Virus record (IMG/VR): IMGVR_UViG_3300033747_000027
Location: 1-54,836 of that record
Strand: one strand, 5' to 3'
DNA length: 54,836 nt
Source of the DNA: a virus
The translations under genes were made by a program, and so were the position numbers. Below, piece by piece: positions 2,991 through 51,807 of this stretch (its first letter is position 1; each line of letters opens with the position of its first letter). Under the pieces are notes generated by a model that saw only the letters and a program-made list of their open reading frames with translations, was not told the DNA's origin and did no database searches.

Positions 2991-4940
2991 ATGAAACAGG
3001 TAAAAATTAAAAAGCTGATCCTTCACAATTTCAAAGGGATCAAGGATTTCGAGACCGTTTTTAACGGTACCACCAAGATTTTTGGTGACAATGCCACCGG
3101 AAAAACAACCCTTGTTGATGCCTTTACATGGCTTCTATTTGGGAAAGACTCAACAGGGAGGAAAGATTTCTCTATCAAAACATTTGATGCGAACAACCAA
3201 CCGATTCACAAGCTAGACCACGAAGTTGTCTGTGAATTTGATGTAGATGGTGAGGATATGATCCTTAAACGTGTTTATCGCGAGAAATGGGTTACCCGTC
3301 GCGGATCAAGCGAACCGGAGCTCCAAGGCCATGAAACGCTATTCTACTGGAACGATGTGCCAATGCAGGCCGGTGAATTTCAAAAGAAAGTCGATCAGGT
3401 TATTTCGGAGGATACTTTCAAAATGCTTACATCTCCTTTCTACTTTAACACCCTAAAATGGCAGGACAGAAGAAGCATTTTAACGACCATTGCCGGAGAT
3501 GTGTCCGATCAGGATATCGCATCAGGAAACCTTGAGTTTTCGGCTCTCATTGAAAATATGGGAAATAAAACCCTTGACGAATTCAAAAAGGAGCTGGCAG
3601 CCAAAAAGAAAAAGCTGAAAGACGAACTGAAGCAAATTCCTGCTCGAATTGACGAGGTTACCAGAAACACGCCTGAAGCTAAAGACTGGGCTTGGATTGA
3701 GGACGAAATTAAAACGGTTGAGAAAAACATCGCTATCATCGATGAGCAGCTTCAGGATTCATCAAAAATTTTTGACGATTTCTACAAAAAGAAACAGGAG
3801 CGCCAACAAAAGATCCATGTAATAAAATCAAAAATCTCTGACATTGAACATGAAGGCCGGTTGAAATTCAATAATCAGGTCAAAGAGAAAAATGAATCAA
3901 TTGAAAATGCGAAATCAGAAATCCAAAGGATCAACAGAAAAATTGAAACCGGAGCCAAAGAAATCAAAGATCTGCAGGAAAGGATTAAGACCTATCAGGA
4001 TGAGCAGAACCGATTGCGCCAAGAATGGGGAAAAGTAAATGAAGAGGAATTTCCAGGGTTCGGCGATGAAGGCAATTTCAAATGTCCCACATGTCAGCAA
4101 GACCTTCCAACTGAAACTATCGAAAGCAAAAAAGCTGAAATTAAAGTGAACTTCAATGCTGAAAAAGAAAGAAAGCTTGCCGATATATCAGCTCAAGGAG
4201 TAGGCTACAAGATAAAAATTGAGAATACACAAAAGGATATTGGACAGCTTCAGTCTGTAGACTATGAATCACAAATTAAAGCTCATGAGGCTGTCATTAA
4301 AGAATGGCAGGAAAAACACCTTGAGTCTGTTCAAGCATTGATTTCTGGAAATGTTGACTACGAGCGATTGAAGAAGGAACTTGAAGAATTCGAGAAAGAA
4401 CCAGTTGAAGAAGAAGCTCCGAAGGTTGACAACTCAGGCCTGAAAGAAAAAAAGACAGCTCTCAATTCTACTCTTGACGGATTAAAAAAGAACCTAAACT
4501 CAAAGTCACAGATTGAAACCGCTGACAAACGGAAGAAACAGCTTCTGGATGAGGAAAGAAAATACTCTCAGCAGCTGGCAGAATTGGAACAATCCGAATT
4601 CACAATACAGGAGTTCACGAAAGCCAAGGTTGATCTACTTGAAGCAAAAATCAACAGTCTATTTGAAGGTGTGAGATTTCGGATGTTCGACACACAGCTG
4701 AATGGGGGACTGATTGAGTGCTGCGATACGATTATTGATGGCGTGCCTTGGCTTGATGCGAATAACGCTGCAAAGATTAACGCAGGAATAGAAATCATCA
4801 ACGTGCTTTCAAAACACTACGAACAAGTCGCTCCTATATGGATCGACAATGCGGAAAGTATCACCAAAATTACGGACTCAGAGGCTCAAAAGATCGAACT
4901 ATACGTCTCAGAAGCTCACAAAGAATTAGAAGTCGCATAA
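2991..4940 (+). CDS. Rad50/SbcC-like AAA ATPase
   Basis: A 649-aa SMC-type ATPase. The N-terminus has a Walker A (GDNATGKTT, residues 32-40) after LHNFKGI. Long coiled coils run from about 190 to 560 and are interrupted by a zinc-hook-like CPTC at about 364-367. The C-terminal lobe carries PIWIDNAES near 616-624, a Walker B-like strand. Family members hold DNA ends with a nuclease partner (SbcD/Mre11). No SbcD-like calcineurin phosphoesterase is seen here, so the partner may be the MBL-fold protein at 6525 or a host enzyme. It precedes the RecT gene by 16 nt, suggesting phage recombination. Confidence 0.88.
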   Translation: MKQVKIKKLILHNFKGIKDFETVFNGTTKIFGDNATGKTTLVDAFTWLLFGKDSTGRKDFSIKTFDANNQPIHKLDHEVVCEFDVDGEDMILKRVYREKWVTRRGSSEPELQGHETLFYWNDVPMQAGEFQKKVDQVISEDTFKMLTSPFYFNTLKWQDRRSILTTIAGDVSDQDIASGNLEFSALIENMGNKTLDEFKKELAAKKKKLKDELKQIPARIDEVTRNTPEAKDWAWIEDEIKTVEKNIAIIDEQLQDSSKIFDDFYKKKQERQQKIHVIKSKISDIEHEGRLKFNNQVKEKNESIENAKSEIQRINRKIETGAKEIKDLQERIKTYQDEQNRLRQEWGKVNEEEFPGFGDEGNFKCPTCQQDLPTETIESKKAEIKVNFNAEKERKLADISAQGVGYKIKIENTQKDIGQLQSVDYESQIKAHEAVIKEWQEKHLESVQALISGNVDYERLKKELEEFEKEPVEEEAPKVDNSGLKEKKTALNSTLDGLKKNLNSKSQIETADKRKKQLLDEERKYSQQLAELEQSEFTIQEFTKAKVDLLEAKINSLFEGVRFRMFDTQLNGGLIECCDTIIDGVPWLDANNAAKINAGIEIINVLSKHYEQVAPIWIDNAESITKITDSEAQKIELYVSEAHKELEVA

Positions 4941-4956
4941 TTAAAAATCAAATCAA

Positions 4957-5922
4957 ATGAAAGCTGAAAGTAATGAAGTGGCGGTAAGACAACAATCCGC
5001 CCCAGTACAATTTAATTTTTTTGACAATAACCACTTCGCAACAATGCAAAGGGTTTGTGGTATGTTCTCTTCAAGCGAACTGGTACCTAAAATGTATCAA
5101 ACAAGTGAGGTTGGCAAGGAAAAAGCAGTGGCAAATTGCATGATCGCAGTTGAGACCGCTCAACGCATCGGCGCCAGTCCACTAATGGTCATGCAGAATA
5201 TGTATATAGTACATGGCCAGCCAGCATGGAGTGCAAAATTCTTAACGGCTACGGTTAACGGTTGCGGTCGGTACAACTCCATTAAATACAAATGGGAGAA
5301 TCTCGGAAAACTTGGGAAGGTTGAATATACAGATTATGAGTATAAAAACAACCGAAGAGTGCCAGTTACCAAGCATTTTGACGCATCCGGACTGGATAAT
5401 TGGCAATGCATTGCTTATACGACCGAAAAAGGAACCAATGAAAAATTGGATTCAATTCCTGTTTCTCTTGAAATGGCCATTAAAGAAGGTTGGTATACAA
5501 AATCCGGTAGTAAATGGCAAACCATGCCAAAACTGATGCTTCAATATCGGTCTGTTACTTTTTGGACTCGTGCATACGCACCGGAGCTTTCCATGGGAAT
5601 ACGAACAGAAGATGAAGTTAAGGATATTATCGATGTTCCTTATGAAGAAGTCAAGGAAACCGAAAAAAAGAAGAACGCTAACCAAAAGGAGGTTTCTATT
5701 CCTGTAAATGAACCAGAATCCAGTAAGTCTGGAAAGGCGGAAGATACAAAAGAATCTCTCTCTCAAGTCACCGTGAAGTCAATTGATGAAGCGAAAAAAT
5801 TCTTAGTGGATGATTTGGGAGTGTCACAGACTGCAATCGGTGATGAAGCTTCTATTTTATCAATAGCCAAGGAACATGACATTGAGTTAACAATCGAAAA
5901 ACAAACCGGCCCCGGATTTTAA
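4957..5922 (+). CDS. RecT-family single-strand annealing protein
   Basis: A 321-aa protein. The core (about residues 20-220) has the RecT pattern: CMIAVETAQRIGASPLMVMQ, then YIVHGQPAWSAKFL, and late in the core FWTRAYAPELSMGIRTEDEV. Residues 225-321 form an acidic, Lys/Glu-rich linker and a short helical tail. RecT proteins anneal complementary single strands during phage recombination. The gene sits between the Rad50-like ATPase and small unknown genes, with the MBL-fold hydrolase close by, forming a likely recombination cluster. Confidence 0.88.
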   Translation: MKAESNEVAVRQQSAPVQFNFFDNNHFATMQRVCGMFSSSELVPKMYQTSEVGKEKAVANCMIAVETAQRIGASPLMVMQNMYIVHGQPAWSAKFLTATVNGCGRYNSIKYKWENLGKLGKVEYTDYEYKNNRRVPVTKHFDASGLDNWQCIAYTTEKGTNEKLDSIPVSLEMAIKEGWYTKSGSKWQTMPKLMLQYRSVTFWTRAYAPELSMGIRTEDEVKDIIDVPYEEVKETEKKKNANQKEVSIPVNEPESSKSGKAEDTKESLSQVTVKSIDEAKKFLVDDLGVSQTAIGDEASILSIAKEHDIELTIEKQTGPGF

Positions 5923-5925
5923 GCT

Positions 5926-6216
5926 ATGGAATATCATTTTAAAGTTGAAACCAAAGAAGCTGGGCAAAGACGCCCATATGGTGATTCTTATTATCACTAT
6001 ATCGTCAAGAACGAAAGTAAAACCCAATATCATGAATCTATAATTAAGAATTTCTGTGTTGGCTTTTTGAAGCCTGCTATATCAGAAAAACTTAGAAGAG
6101 AGCGTATGGAAAAAGAGGGTTTTGGATCAGCGACATTTGCCTCCTACTGGACTGTTTTTAGACAGATTGATGATAGAACATTTGAATACAAAGTTACTCA
6201 ACCTTCAACGCATTAA
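5926..6216 (+). CDS. Hypothetical protein, 96 aa
   Basis: A 96-aa protein beginning 3 nt after the RecT stop. It contains several aromatic residues (GDSYYHYIVKN) and a basic helix (KLRRERMEKEG) in the middle. No signal peptide, membrane segment or known domain is visible. Tight packing with RecT suggests cotranslation and perhaps a recombination role, which is inferred from position only. Confidence 0.7.
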   Translation: MEYHFKVETKEAGQRRPYGDSYYHYIVKNESKTQYHESIIKNFCVGFLKPAISEKLRRERMEKEGFGSATFASYWTVFRQIDDRTFEYKVTQPSTH

Positions 6217-6222
6217 TAAGCT

Positions 6223-6528
6223 ATGGAAAAGAAGTTTTCACAAGGATTGTGGGAAAGGATTGGAAACACAATAGTTGTCGGTAAAAAGACAATTGCTGTA
6301 GCTACTAAATGTGATCCTAAATCAAATTATGCAAGGGATGGCAAATACCCCTATAATTTCGATGAGGTGGAAGCCAATGCAAAACTACTTTATTCAGCTC
6401 CTGAACTTCTAGAGTGTTGTTTGACTGCCAAAGCAATGTATGAAGCTCAAGGAATAACTGAAGATAGTAGAATTGGTGGATCACAACTCAAAGAATTGAA
6501 TTTAGTCATCAAAAAAGCGACAGAATGA
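6223..6528 (+). CDS. Hypothetical phage protein, 101 aa
   Basis: A 101-aa protein. The stretch EANAKLLYSAPELLECC is typical of a widespread class of small phage early proteins of unknown function, in which an N-terminal strand region leads to a helix beginning EANAxLIAxAPELL. Its stop overlaps the start of the MBL-fold gene by 4 nt (ATGA), so the two are translationally coupled. No catalytic motif is seen. Confidence 0.75.
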   Translation: MEKKFSQGLWERIGNTIVVGKKTIAVATKCDPKSNYARDGKYPYNFDEVEANAKLLYSAPELLECCLTAKAMYEAQGITEDSRIGGSQLKELNLVIKKATE

Positions 6529-7262
6529 AACTCAAAGTACTCGGAAGCTCCAGCAAGGGCAATAGCTATCTACTTGAATCTTCATCTGGTCAAATACTGG
6601 TCCTTGAGGCCGGTATTCGGCTGGCGGAGATAAAAAAGCAAATTGAATTTAAAATCATGGACATTATCGGTTGCCTGATAACTCACGAACACGGCGATCA
6701 TGCCGCATACGCCAATCAGTTCACCGAAGCTGCGATTGATGTTTATTGTTCGAAAGGAACAGCGACCAAATTCAAGCCACATCACAGGATTAATACAATT
6801 ACGGCTTTGGATTCCGTGCGCATAGGAGAGTTCAAGGTAGTCCCTTTTAACGTGATACATGATGCTGCTGAGCCTTTCGGGTACTTAATCAATCACCCGG
6901 AATGTGGTACGACCCTATTCCTTACTGACACTTTCTATTCTGAGTTCACATTCAAGGGCTTAAACAACATCATTCTTGAAGTGAATTACGATGTGGATAT
7001 TCTTGATGCAAATATAGAATCAGGACGCTTAGCTCCATCGATTAAGAGTAGAATAATTACCAGCCACATGAGCATTCAAACAGCTCTGGAATTGCTAGAA
7101 GCAAATGACCTTTCAAAGGTTAACAACATCGTCCTAATCCATCTCTCTGACGGCAACAGCCATGAAATCAACTTCAAAAAAGAAATCGAAGTTGCGACGG
7201 CTAAAACTGTAACTGTTGCTGATACCGGAACTGAAGTATTACTCAATAAGACACCATTTTGA
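6525..7262 (+). CDS. MBL-fold metallohydrolase
   Basis: A 245-aa protein of the YycJ-like metallo-beta-lactamase fold. THEHGDHA supplies the HxHxDH metal site (His54, His56, Asp58, His59), and later His residues (for example in TSHMS and LIHLSD) would complete a two-metal centre. Such proteins are often nucleases or phosphodiesterases. In several phages an MBL-fold gene lies close to RecT, and here it may supply the end-processing nuclease that the annealase needs; that pairing is an inference. The start overlaps the previous stop (ATGA). Confidence 0.85.
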   Translation: MKLKVLGSSSKGNSYLLESSSGQILVLEAGIRLAEIKKQIEFKIMDIIGCLITHEHGDHAAYANQFTEAAIDVYCSKGTATKFKPHHRINTITALDSVRIGEFKVVPFNVIHDAAEPFGYLINHPECGTTLFLTDTFYSEFTFKGLNNIILEVNYDVDILDANIESGRLAPSIKSRIITSHMSIQTALELLEANDLSKVNNIVLIHLSDGNSHEINFKKEIEVATAKTVTVADTGTEVLLNKTPF

Positions 7263-7815: not shown

Positions 7816-7837
7816 GCCTCCCAGGACCATGGGAGGC
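7816..7837 (+). promoter_or_regulatory. 7-bp hairpin upstream of tRNA-like element
   Basis: GCCTCCC (7816-7822) and GGGAGGC (7831-7837) form a perfect stem with an 8-nt loop, ending 4 nt before the 5' end of the tRNA-like element. There is no T-run, so it is not a standard terminator. It could be a processing signal for the tRNA-like RNA. The rest of the 7724-7815 gap holds no gene that I can support. Confidence 0.4.
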
Positions 7838-7841
7838 AAAC

Positions 7842-7967
7842 GGAGTGGTGGCGAAATTGGTAGCCGCTGAAGCAATATGCTGCAATCACCCATGATGAGA
7901 GGGGAACTTGTTTGGGACTTTCATAAGTAGAACAACCCTCGTGCTGGTTCAAGTCCAGCCCACTCCA
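7842..7967 (+). tRNA. tRNA-like element, 126 nt, isotype undetermined
   Basis: The ends are fully tRNA-like. The acceptor GGAGTGG (7842-7848) pairs with CCACTCC (7960-7966), followed by discriminator A7967. The D arm is GCG (7851-7853) with CGC (7865-7867) around a loop containing TTGGTAG. The T arm is GCTGG (7943-7947) with CCAGC (7955-7959) around TTCAAGT. CCA is not fully encoded. The middle is about 35-40 nt longer than in a normal class II tRNA. One fold gives an anticodon stem 7868-7872/7880-7884 with one mismatch and loop CAATATG lacking U33, followed by a large hairpin (GAGGG with CCCTC, TTGTT with AACAA). It may be a degenerate tRNA, one with an expanded variable arm, or a tRNA mimic. 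Confidence 0.55.
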
Positions 7968-16786: not shown

Positions 16787-17599
16787 ATGAATAAATTTTT
16801 ACAGAAATATGAAATGGAGTTACGGCTTCGAAATTACAGTCAAAACACGATTAACAGCTACATGAGCGAGGCTAAACTGTTTTTGAGGCATTTCAACCAT
16901 CCGCCTGGAGAAATATCCGAAACGGAAATCAAGAAATACCTGAAAGCTTCTAAGTCAACCTCGCAATTAAAACAGCGAATCGGAGCGCTTAAACGCTTCT
17001 ATCAGTTAGTCGTTAAACAACCTCTAAAGTTTAAGTACATCGACTATCCGCGTAGGGAGGAGCATTTGCCGGTTGTACTTTCACAGGATGAAGTAAGGCG
17101 GCTGTTTACCGTTTGTAAATACCCAAAGCACAGGGCAATTTTGTTTCTATTTTACTCAACGGGGATGCGCGAAGGAGAGCTGATCAATCTGAAGATCACC
17201 GACATTGACAGCGACCGGATGGTGATTCACATCCGGCAAGGCAAAGGCAATAAAGACCGACTGGTACCGCTTTCCGAAAAGACGCTCGACGCGCTTCGGA
17301 AATACTACAAAAAGGACTGTCCGACCAACTATTTATTTAACGGGCAATTCCGGGATCAATACTCCGCCACCTCAATTTACAATATGGTGAAAGACTATGC
17401 CCGCAAAGCAGGCATAAAAAAGCGCGTTTACCCGCACCTGATACGCCACTGCGCCGGCACACACCTTTACGAAGAGGGCACGGATATGTCGAAAATTCAG
17501 GAAATTTTTGGACATAAGCAACAAAAGACAACCAGGCGTTACGCCCGCATGTCCACTCGCATGATTTCTCAAGTTAAGACACCAGATTCATATTTATAA
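16787..17599 (+). CDS. Tyrosine recombinase of the cassette module
   Basis: A 270-aa Xer-like tyrosine recombinase with an N-terminal SAM-like core-binding domain (residues 1-85) and a catalytic domain. The residues are Arg128 (TGMREGEL), His217 and Arg220 (HLIRH), His243 (IFGHKQ) and Tyr252 (TTRRYARM); all are present, so it should be active. It is shorter than integron IntI (about 320-340 aa) and shows no IntI-specific extra segment. Its second half looks clearly more GC-rich than neighbouring genes, a sign of separate origin. It lies 50 nt after the last cassette boundary and probably acts on those sites. Confidence 0.88.
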   Translation: MNKFLQKYEMELRLRNYSQNTINSYMSEAKLFLRHFNHPPGEISETEIKKYLKASKSTSQLKQRIGALKRFYQLVVKQPLKFKYIDYPRREEHLPVVLSQDEVRRLFTVCKYPKHRAILFLFYSTGMREGELINLKITDIDSDRMVIHIRQGKGNKDRLVPLSEKTLDALRKYYKKDCPTNYLFNGQFRDQYSATSIYNMVKDYARKAGIKKRVYPHLIRHCAGTHLYEEGTDMSKIQEIFGHKQQKTTRRYARMSTRMISQVKTPDSYL

Positions 17600-50661: not shown

Positions 50662-51807
50662 TTAAACGGCAATCATCATTGGCATAATTAGGATTGTAAG
50701 AGAGTGATATTCATCTCCTTCATCGTAAACTGGTGAAATAAGAGCAGCTGTGTTTGATTCTCGCATTGTGATTCTAACTTCTGGAGTATCAATAGCATTT
50801 AGACATTGGAGTAGAAACTCGCTCTTAAAACCGATCTCAATTAATTCAGTGGACGAATACTCAACAGACATTTGCTCTTGAGCTGACATTTGGAAATCAT
50901 CATCTTTTCCACTTACTGTTAAGTTTTGATCTGAAATCGAAAGGCTAACAAGAAGTGAGCTCTTATTGGCAAAAATGGATGTCCTTTTCAATGCTCCATT
51001 AAAGCTCTTTACATCTGCTTTAACTTCCTTGTCATTGTCTCGTGGAATTACCGCTCTGAAGTTTGGATAATTGCCTTCTATCAAACGGTACACTATTTTA
51101 GTATCGCCAAACATGGCCGTCAAATTTCGACTTCCTATTTGTAATTCTATAGTATCTATTCCATCTGCGAGTTCGGAAATAATCTTACCAAACTTCAACG
51201 GCAAAACAATATTGAAATCATCTAAGTCAGTATTGAATACTTCGTAAATACCCATCATATTGGAGTTGGTAGAAGTAAAGGTCAATTTACCTTCCTTACT
51301 CTCCATAAGCACGCTATTCATGATAGGCCTCAATTCATCGTGACCTGCAAATCCGATAACCTTTTTTATACCATCAACCAAAACATGACTTTCAAGTGTA
51401 ATTGGTCGAATCGTTTCTCCTGCCTTTTGCTGAATAACAGAAAAGTCATCGTTTGATATTACTGGGATTCTGTAGATTCCGCTTTCATGCTTCAACGTTG
51501 CATTTCCAGAGCTTCCTTTTATTTCTACATCAATTATTAACGGTTGTTCAGGGAGAACCTTTAAACCATCAAGCATTATCTTGTGCTCGATTTGGAACTT
51601 ACAATTTTCCATCGACTGAGAAACACACTCGATCGTTTTAGTAATATTACCCTCTCTGTCCGCACCAGTGACCGATAAAACTCCATCATTAATTTCAAAC
51701 AAAAAGTTGTCGTGACAAGGTATTAAGCTTTTATTGCTTACGACCTTTCCCACTGCTGTCAGCTTATTCAGCAGTTCATTTCTTGATACTGTAATTTGTC
51801 CATTCAT
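50662..51807 (-). CDS. dnaN: DNA polymerase sliding clamp (beta/DnaN-like)
   Basis: A 381-aa beta clamp with the three-domain pattern: an N-terminal ITVSRNELLNKLTAVGKVVS, then DNFLFEINDGVLSVTGAD, then YPNFRAVIPRD in domain 2-3, and a C-terminal end LTILIMPMMI, which resembles the beta end 'VIMPMRL'. It would encircle DNA and tether the polymerase. No phage polymerase is seen in the window, so it probably works with the host enzyme. It lies between the fusion gene and PRTRC E. Confidence 0.92.
   Translation of the reverse strand: MNGQITVSRNELLNKLTAVGKVVSNKSLIPCHDNFLFEINDGVLSVTGADREGNITKTIECVSQSMENCKFQIEHKIMLDGLKVLPEQPLIIDVEIKGSSGNATLKHESGIYRIPVISNDDFSVIQQKAGETIRPITLESHVLVDGIKKVIGFAGHDELRPIMNSVLMESKEGKLTFTSTNSNMMGIYEVFNTDLDDFNIVLPLKFGKIISELADGIDTIELQIGSRNLTAMFGDTKIVYRLIEGNYPNFRAVIPRDNDKEVKADVKSFNGALKRTSIFANKSSLLVSLSISDQNLTVSGKDDDFQMSAQEQMSVEYSSTELIEIGFKSEFLLQCLNAIDTPEVRITMRESNTAALISPVYDEGDEYHSLTILIMPMMIAV

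Follow-up and report, generated by a model that had tools for sequence, protein, structure and literature searches.

Bacterial tRNA-Leu is a class II tRNA covered by the Rfam model RF00005. In E. coli, LeuRS needs A73, A15-U48, G18G19 and A20a of its substrate and can do without the anticodon arm, and tRNA-Leu variants deprived of both the anticodon and variable arms remain active with LeuRS (PMC9976931). As summarised in the same source, the minimal LeuRS substrates of Larkin 2002 are laboratory constructs that keep A73 and the D/T-loop contacts and drop the anticodon arm. The pseudo-tRNA of Bacillus cereus known as tRNA-Other is a tRNA-like RNA outside translation with a link to mobile DNA, which has a Trp anticodon, is embedded in a larger RNA and accepts lysine only poorly (PMC3399842). 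tmRNA combines tRNA-like ends with a structured, sometimes pseudoknotted middle, and in the engineered tRNA scaffold for RNA expression (e.g. PMC3753655) an RNA replaces the anticodon arm of a tRNA.

Here we report on a tRNA-like element at positions 7842-7967 (plus strand) of a viral DNA of 54,836 nt, analysed over its whole length and hereafter called the window (IMG/VR record IMGVR_UViG_3300033747_000027). The element seems to belong to a class of non-decoding tRNA mimics that is widespread but has been overlooked, and in which the same leucine-tRNA-like shell surrounds unrelated inserts. It has the acceptor stem, D-arm, T-arm, A15-U48, G18G19, A20a and A73 of bacterial tRNA-Leu, but is 126 nt long, compared with about 85 nt, and has a 75-nt middle with no canonical anticodon arm. 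Unlike tRNA-Other, the class described here lacks the anticodon arm, is phage-borne and comes in over 100 versions. Unlike tmRNA, the window element has a true D-stem and, within its 126 nt, no tag reading frame was found; ARAGORN in tmRNA mode (-m) reported nothing for it, and no tmRNA family of Rfam matched. The elements also differ from the minimal LeuRS substrates, as far as the summary describes these, in being natural and in holding a large insert, and from the engineered scaffold in not being artificial. No description of such a class was found in the open-access literature, in a search that covered few subscription papers.

The window is a temperate siphovirus of the Bacteroides type, whose genes include an S24 repressor, a LuxR-type regulator, an integrase (16787-17599), an SbcC-like protein, RecT, a metal-dependent hydrolase, a helicase, a sliding clamp, and capsid and tail genes. 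The clamp gene (50662-51807, minus strand) encodes a DNA polymerase III beta subunit of the phage's own. The element is present in a single copy in the record, between genes of the early operon, and no open reading frame of at least 60 aa overlaps it. A 7-bp hairpin without a U tract, GCCTCCC-aggaccat-GGGAGGC (7816-7837, plus strand), ends 4 nt on its 5' side and is possibly a leader or processing hairpin. By its helicase, the phage is closest to a human-gut contig (70%), followed by the Bacteroides phages BS-TP3 and BKO1-TP3 (about 54%). The nearest relative by this measure (L002) is without the element, and BS-TP3 and BS-TP4 encode different oversized tRNA-like elements in their early regions, both unannotated in their records: one of 111 nt in BS-TP3 (L003:7766-7876), with a stem GTATTC/GAATAC and a 44-nt loop, and one of 88 nt in BS-TP4 (L007:5809-5896). 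Close homologues of the window element were found neither by blastn in phages nor by exact patterns or via protein neighbours in viral contigs. The sequence GGTAGCCGC is common to the window and to one contig (L261), whose 107-nt element has an unrelated insert. Searching named phages with one Leu-like element returned only ordinary tRNA fragments.

The preliminary description held that the acceptor, D and T arms pair as in a tRNA, and this was borne out in full. The acceptor strands GGAGTGG (7842-7848) and CCACTCC (7960-7966) form 7/7 pairs, their pairing being further supported by covariation in the class, the D-arm GCG-AAATTGGTAGC-CGC (7851-7867) forms 3/3 and the T-arm GCTGG-TTCAAGT-CCAGC (7943-7959) 5/5. 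The D-arm carries A14, A15, G18, G19 and A20a as in tRNA-Leu, U8 is present, and a discriminator A stands at 7967 with no encoded CCA, so that the element contains the whole LeuRS-required set as well as U8-A14. A local search with RF00005 matched it at 31.9 bits (gathering score 29, E=6e-5), the middle 55 nt being unmodelled. Of the checks proposed at the outset, the local covariance-model search and the intron mode of ARAGORN accepted the element, while default ARAGORN called no tRNA there and a whole-window Rfam scan with fast filters did not report it. The intron mode forces the element into a tRNA-Pro(ggg) with a 39-nt intron, a call that misfits because the D-arm is leucine-type. Since default ARAGORN and fast-filter Rfam both miss an element of this kind, phage genomes carry unlisted tRNA-shaped genes. 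The 126-nt RNA as a whole folds better than its dinucleotide shuffles (z -2.0). Of the features of a functional decoding tRNA it has the consensus arms and loops, and it lacks a 5-bp anticodon stem with a 7-nt loop and U33.

The anticodon arm and variable region are replaced by the 75-nt insert (7868-7942), whose last letter is U48 (7942), able to pair with A15. The anticodon arm with loop CAATATG that had been suggested for it (TGAAG-CAATATG-CTGCA, 7868-7884; 4/5 pairs, no U33) is at chance level, because about 7 of 100 shuffled inserts form a canonical stem with at least 4/5 pairs. The idea of a giant variable arm was partly right: a helix of GAGGG-GAAC-TTGTT (7899-7912) with AACAA-CCCTC (7931-7940), predicted in both the MFE and the centroid structure, is followed by the spacer GU (7941-7942) and so ends 2 nt before the T-stem, a recurrent and enriched feature of the class. 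The strand TGAAG (7868-7872), formerly regarded as part of a fold competing with this arm, has its partner TTTCA (7919-7923) inside the variable-helix loop. The two pairings need not compete and, as a hypothesis only, could coexist as a pseudoknot of a topology found in relatives; for the window alone, the TGAAG/TTTCA pairing is not significant, and the nested fold of the isolated insert is no better than shuffled (z -0.4). With TGAAG/TTTCA taken as an anticodon stem around an intron, the remaining 19 nt contain no variable-arm hairpin. A comparison with group I introns was negative, given the 75 nt of the insert against at least about 200 nt and no match to an Rfam intron. The window element combines the four features that define the oversized class, namely a Leu-type shell, U48, an insert of 58-88 nt and a helix 2 nt before the T-stem.

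Members of this class were collected with a pattern that placed a Leu D-arm and a T-arm 65-95 nt apart, too far for a normal tRNA-Leu, and left the acceptor free. Because the pattern fixed the D-loop letters A14, A15, G18G19 and A20a, together with part of the T-loop, conservation of the D-loop is not independent evidence; the only independent features are U8, U48, acceptor pairing, A73 and those of the insert. At least 119 viral contigs matched. Among the viral matches listed, 107 distinct oversized Leu-like elements were scored, and 94 of them form at least 6/7 acceptor and at least 4/5 T-stem pairs, at a chance rate for acceptor pairing that we estimate at about 1%. Together with matches from cellular genomes, these elements number 116, of 105-139 nt, and fall into 100 insert families; these counts are lower bounds, and the lengths are bounded by the searched range. 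Such elements are rare in cells: the same kind of pattern gave 44 matches in 84,980 cellular genomes, about 15 of which are ordinary tRNA-Leu genes in a rearranged context, and many of the others belong to Bacteroidota. A second shell type, with a class I D-arm, was detected in 47 further viral contigs.

The 100 insert families from the matches listed use 60 different acceptor stems, every acceptor position showing each of the four types of Watson-Crick pair, and both U8 and U48, neither required by the pattern, are present in 100/100. Of the class I shells, 26/28 have C at position 48, the partner of G15. The 15-48 pair thus switches as a unit between the shell types, which shows that the tRNA elbow forms in both. 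The discriminator is A73 in 75/100 families; the other 25 should be charged poorly with leucine. Judging from these comparisons, strong selection acts on the shell around some 100 inserts that are independent of one another, in support of the tRNA mimic named as one option in the preliminary description. Its alternative of a decayed copy is contradicted by the covarying acceptor stems and the invariant U8 and U48. A decaying tRNA copy or the remnant of an attachment site would agree with a window insert that has no homologue, with a nearest relative that lacks the element and with a phage that has an integrase; such an origin is nevertheless very improbable in view of the intact shell stems and elbow contacts, the covariation across the class and, for an attachment site, the 8.8 kb that separate the integrase from the element.

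The Leu-like set lacks the anticodon arm. Stems of the canonical kind, with at least 4/5 pairs and a 7-nt loop, occurred in 3/100 of its members against 7 in shuffles, that is, at or below chance, and the CAATATG candidate of the window is one of the near misses. A helix that stops exactly 2 nt short of the T-stem was found in 37/100 families compared with 10 expected, while spacers of 5 to 8 nt were near chance. The 2-nt spacing is the variable-arm geometry of tRNA-Leu. In several members the variable helix starts 5-12 nt past the D-arm, so no anticodon arm is possible there. These features bear on the proposal that the element is a true tRNA whose anticodon loop contains a short intron, excised by a bacterial or phage splicing route not yet known. 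The acceptance of the window by ARAGORN intron mode speaks for it, as do the class I members and a few Leu-like elements (e.g. L152) that retain both the canonical anticodon stem and the variable region, with a giant loop enclosed. The intron-like insert suspected earlier is not supported, however, by the Leu-like set, where a suitable stem is present in 31 real against 29.4 shuffled inserts; the anticodons predicted in these Leu bodies do not agree (Pro, Ile, Thr, Asn and others), the early variable helices leave no room for an anticodon stem, and no RNA ligase or splicing endonuclease was recognised among the window genes tested. We regard both an ordinary intron and decay as unlikely.

Between families the inserts are hypervariable. 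No motif is common to the middles of the 100 families, and, measured against mononucleotide shuffles, the inserts fold better by a small margin only (mean z -0.86). Within families they are kept, one insert being common to the 17 contigs of the L028 family. In the related elements L052 and L105, a pseudoknot is preserved by changes on both strands (GATAAC/GTTATC and AATAAC/GTTATT), as is the variable helix, and in L057, L083 and L111 the pairing GTCAAC/GTTGAC is replaced by AATAAC/GTTATT and ACCAAC/GTTGGT. Such conservation and compensation among close relatives suggests a role for the insert as well. L028, L093, L099 and L052/L105 show an evident pseudoknot, in which the strand that follows the D-arm pairs with the variable-helix loop. 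A universal pseudoknot was considered and rejected, as shuffles were beaten at p<0.05 in only 5 of the 43 elements whose variable helix is strong, and we claim it neither for the class nor for the window.

Elements of abnormal size also occur together. A Bacteroides sp. contig (L235; G002:C126:44000-57000) carries an array of six tRNA-likes of 81, 132, 149, 110, 105 and 78 nt in about 2 kb (minus strand, 4714-6680 in reverse-complement coordinates), of which default ARAGORN calls only one as a tRNA, and another Bacteroides contig (L236) has a cluster with members of 120, 71, 106, 127 and 97 nt. On a Bacteroidaceae chromosome (L258; G299:C1:3626000-3642000) a 104-nt orthologue stands beside tRNA-likes with 3- and 4-nt anticodon loops. 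The undersized tRNA-likes, 70-71 nt long with anticodon loops of 3-4 nt (L258 minus 6680 and 8077, L236 minus 7139), share their arrays with oversized ones. Since these arrays of Bacteroides phages or prophages mix oversized (78-149 nt) and undersized members, what the members have in common is a shell that offers no usable anticodon. The 105- and 106-nt orthologues differ in shell and stem and keep a 26-nt loop (CTGAAATAGGGATGTCAGCCCTTAGA and its variant). Separately, the anticodon loop of two homologous elements (L235 minus 5548, 132 nt; L236 minus 5200, 120 nt) holds a second T-arm-like hairpin, GAGAG-TTCGAGT-CTCTC. The viral class I shells (L172-L218) have a canonical anticodon stem, a 5-nt variable loop and a giant anticodon loop, often with a hairpin (e.g. 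L184, L192), and three of them with different shells (L180, L186, L209) have the insert core CTTGCCAWTGCTGCA in common.

The elements are intergenic and mostly on the strand of the flanking genes, in the early operon in the window and downstream of capsid genes elsewhere; neighbours vary, and no neighbour gene shared by the class was found. A link with tRNA clusters was rejected, a normal tRNA lying within 1 kb of only 27 of 94 elements among the matches listed. The intergenic, co-directional placement is what would be expected of a processing signal (tRNA punctuation), with RNase P and RNase Z cuts in the operon separating or stabilising phage mRNAs. An ordinary tRNA would suffice for that role, which leaves the conserved and compensated inserts and the loss of the anticodon arm unexplained, and we give this explanation little credence.

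The reading that we prefer, with a probability of roughly 45%, is that the phage encodes a tRNA mimic with a leucine-type shell that does not decode, and in which a long, family-specific structured insert takes the place of the missing anticodon arm. The shell with its covariation, the 2-nt geometry and the absence of the anticodon arm were established by sequence comparison over about 100 insert families; the function, as a decoy or sink or as a stable scaffold for variable RNA, is what we infer. In the proposed scheme, the leucine-type shell forms its elbow contacts (U8-A14, A15-U48, G18G19), the insert would usually be closed by the helix 2 nt before the T-stem, and RNase P and RNase Z would cut the element from the operon transcript, after which it would receive CCA. 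It could possibly be charged with leucine, given that A73 and the elbow are required by LeuRS and the anticodon arm is dispensable. The mature RNA would be a tRNA unable to decode, and may act as a decoy or sink for host factors that act on tRNA, such as nucleases, tRNA-modifying toxins, LeuRS or EF-Tu, or alternatively as a leucyl carrier outside translation. The shell would be the working part, and the middle would mainly bar ribosome entry and the access of anticodon enzymes.

We favour a mimic that acts as a decoy or leucyl carrier, since it is the shell that stays constant and since undersized members exist too. Several observations count against it: the fold of the window insert is no better than shuffled and the window element has no close homologue, A73 is present in only 75/100 families, the closest helicase relative lacks the element, and inserts are conserved, and in some families compensated, among close relatives. 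This conservation of inserts in families makes a natural tRNA scaffold the main rival, in which the shell would serve only to mature the RNA, protect its ends and stabilise it, and the phage-specific effector (such as an antisense, protein-binding or anti-defence RNA) would be the variable insert. The insert shared by the 17 contigs of the L028 family, the two-sided changes of L052/L105, the compensated pairs of L057/L083/L111 and the 26-nt loop kept by the 105/106-nt orthologues through shell and stem changes would all fit a scaffold. It accounts poorly for the missing common motif and the slight folding advantage of the inserts, and the undersized members have almost no insert, so that we consider it doubtful.

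For the non-decoding mimic, we advance a broader proposal tentatively: phages, and those of Bacteroidota in particular, may encode many unannotated tRNA-shell RNAs that can be aminoacylated but cannot decode; with their hypervariable cores, these would form a large class acting as leucyl-RNAs or decoys in phage-host conflict. The BS-TP3 and BS-TP4 elements, which belong to isolated Bacteroides phages, are convenient for bench work. If the elements are charged, phages would make non-decoding leucyl-RNAs, a natural counterpart of the minimal LeuRS substrates that lack an anticodon; a decoy role would point to host defences for which the tRNA body is the recognised target; and if they are scaffolds, the laboratory 'tRNA scaffold' would have been invented by nature.
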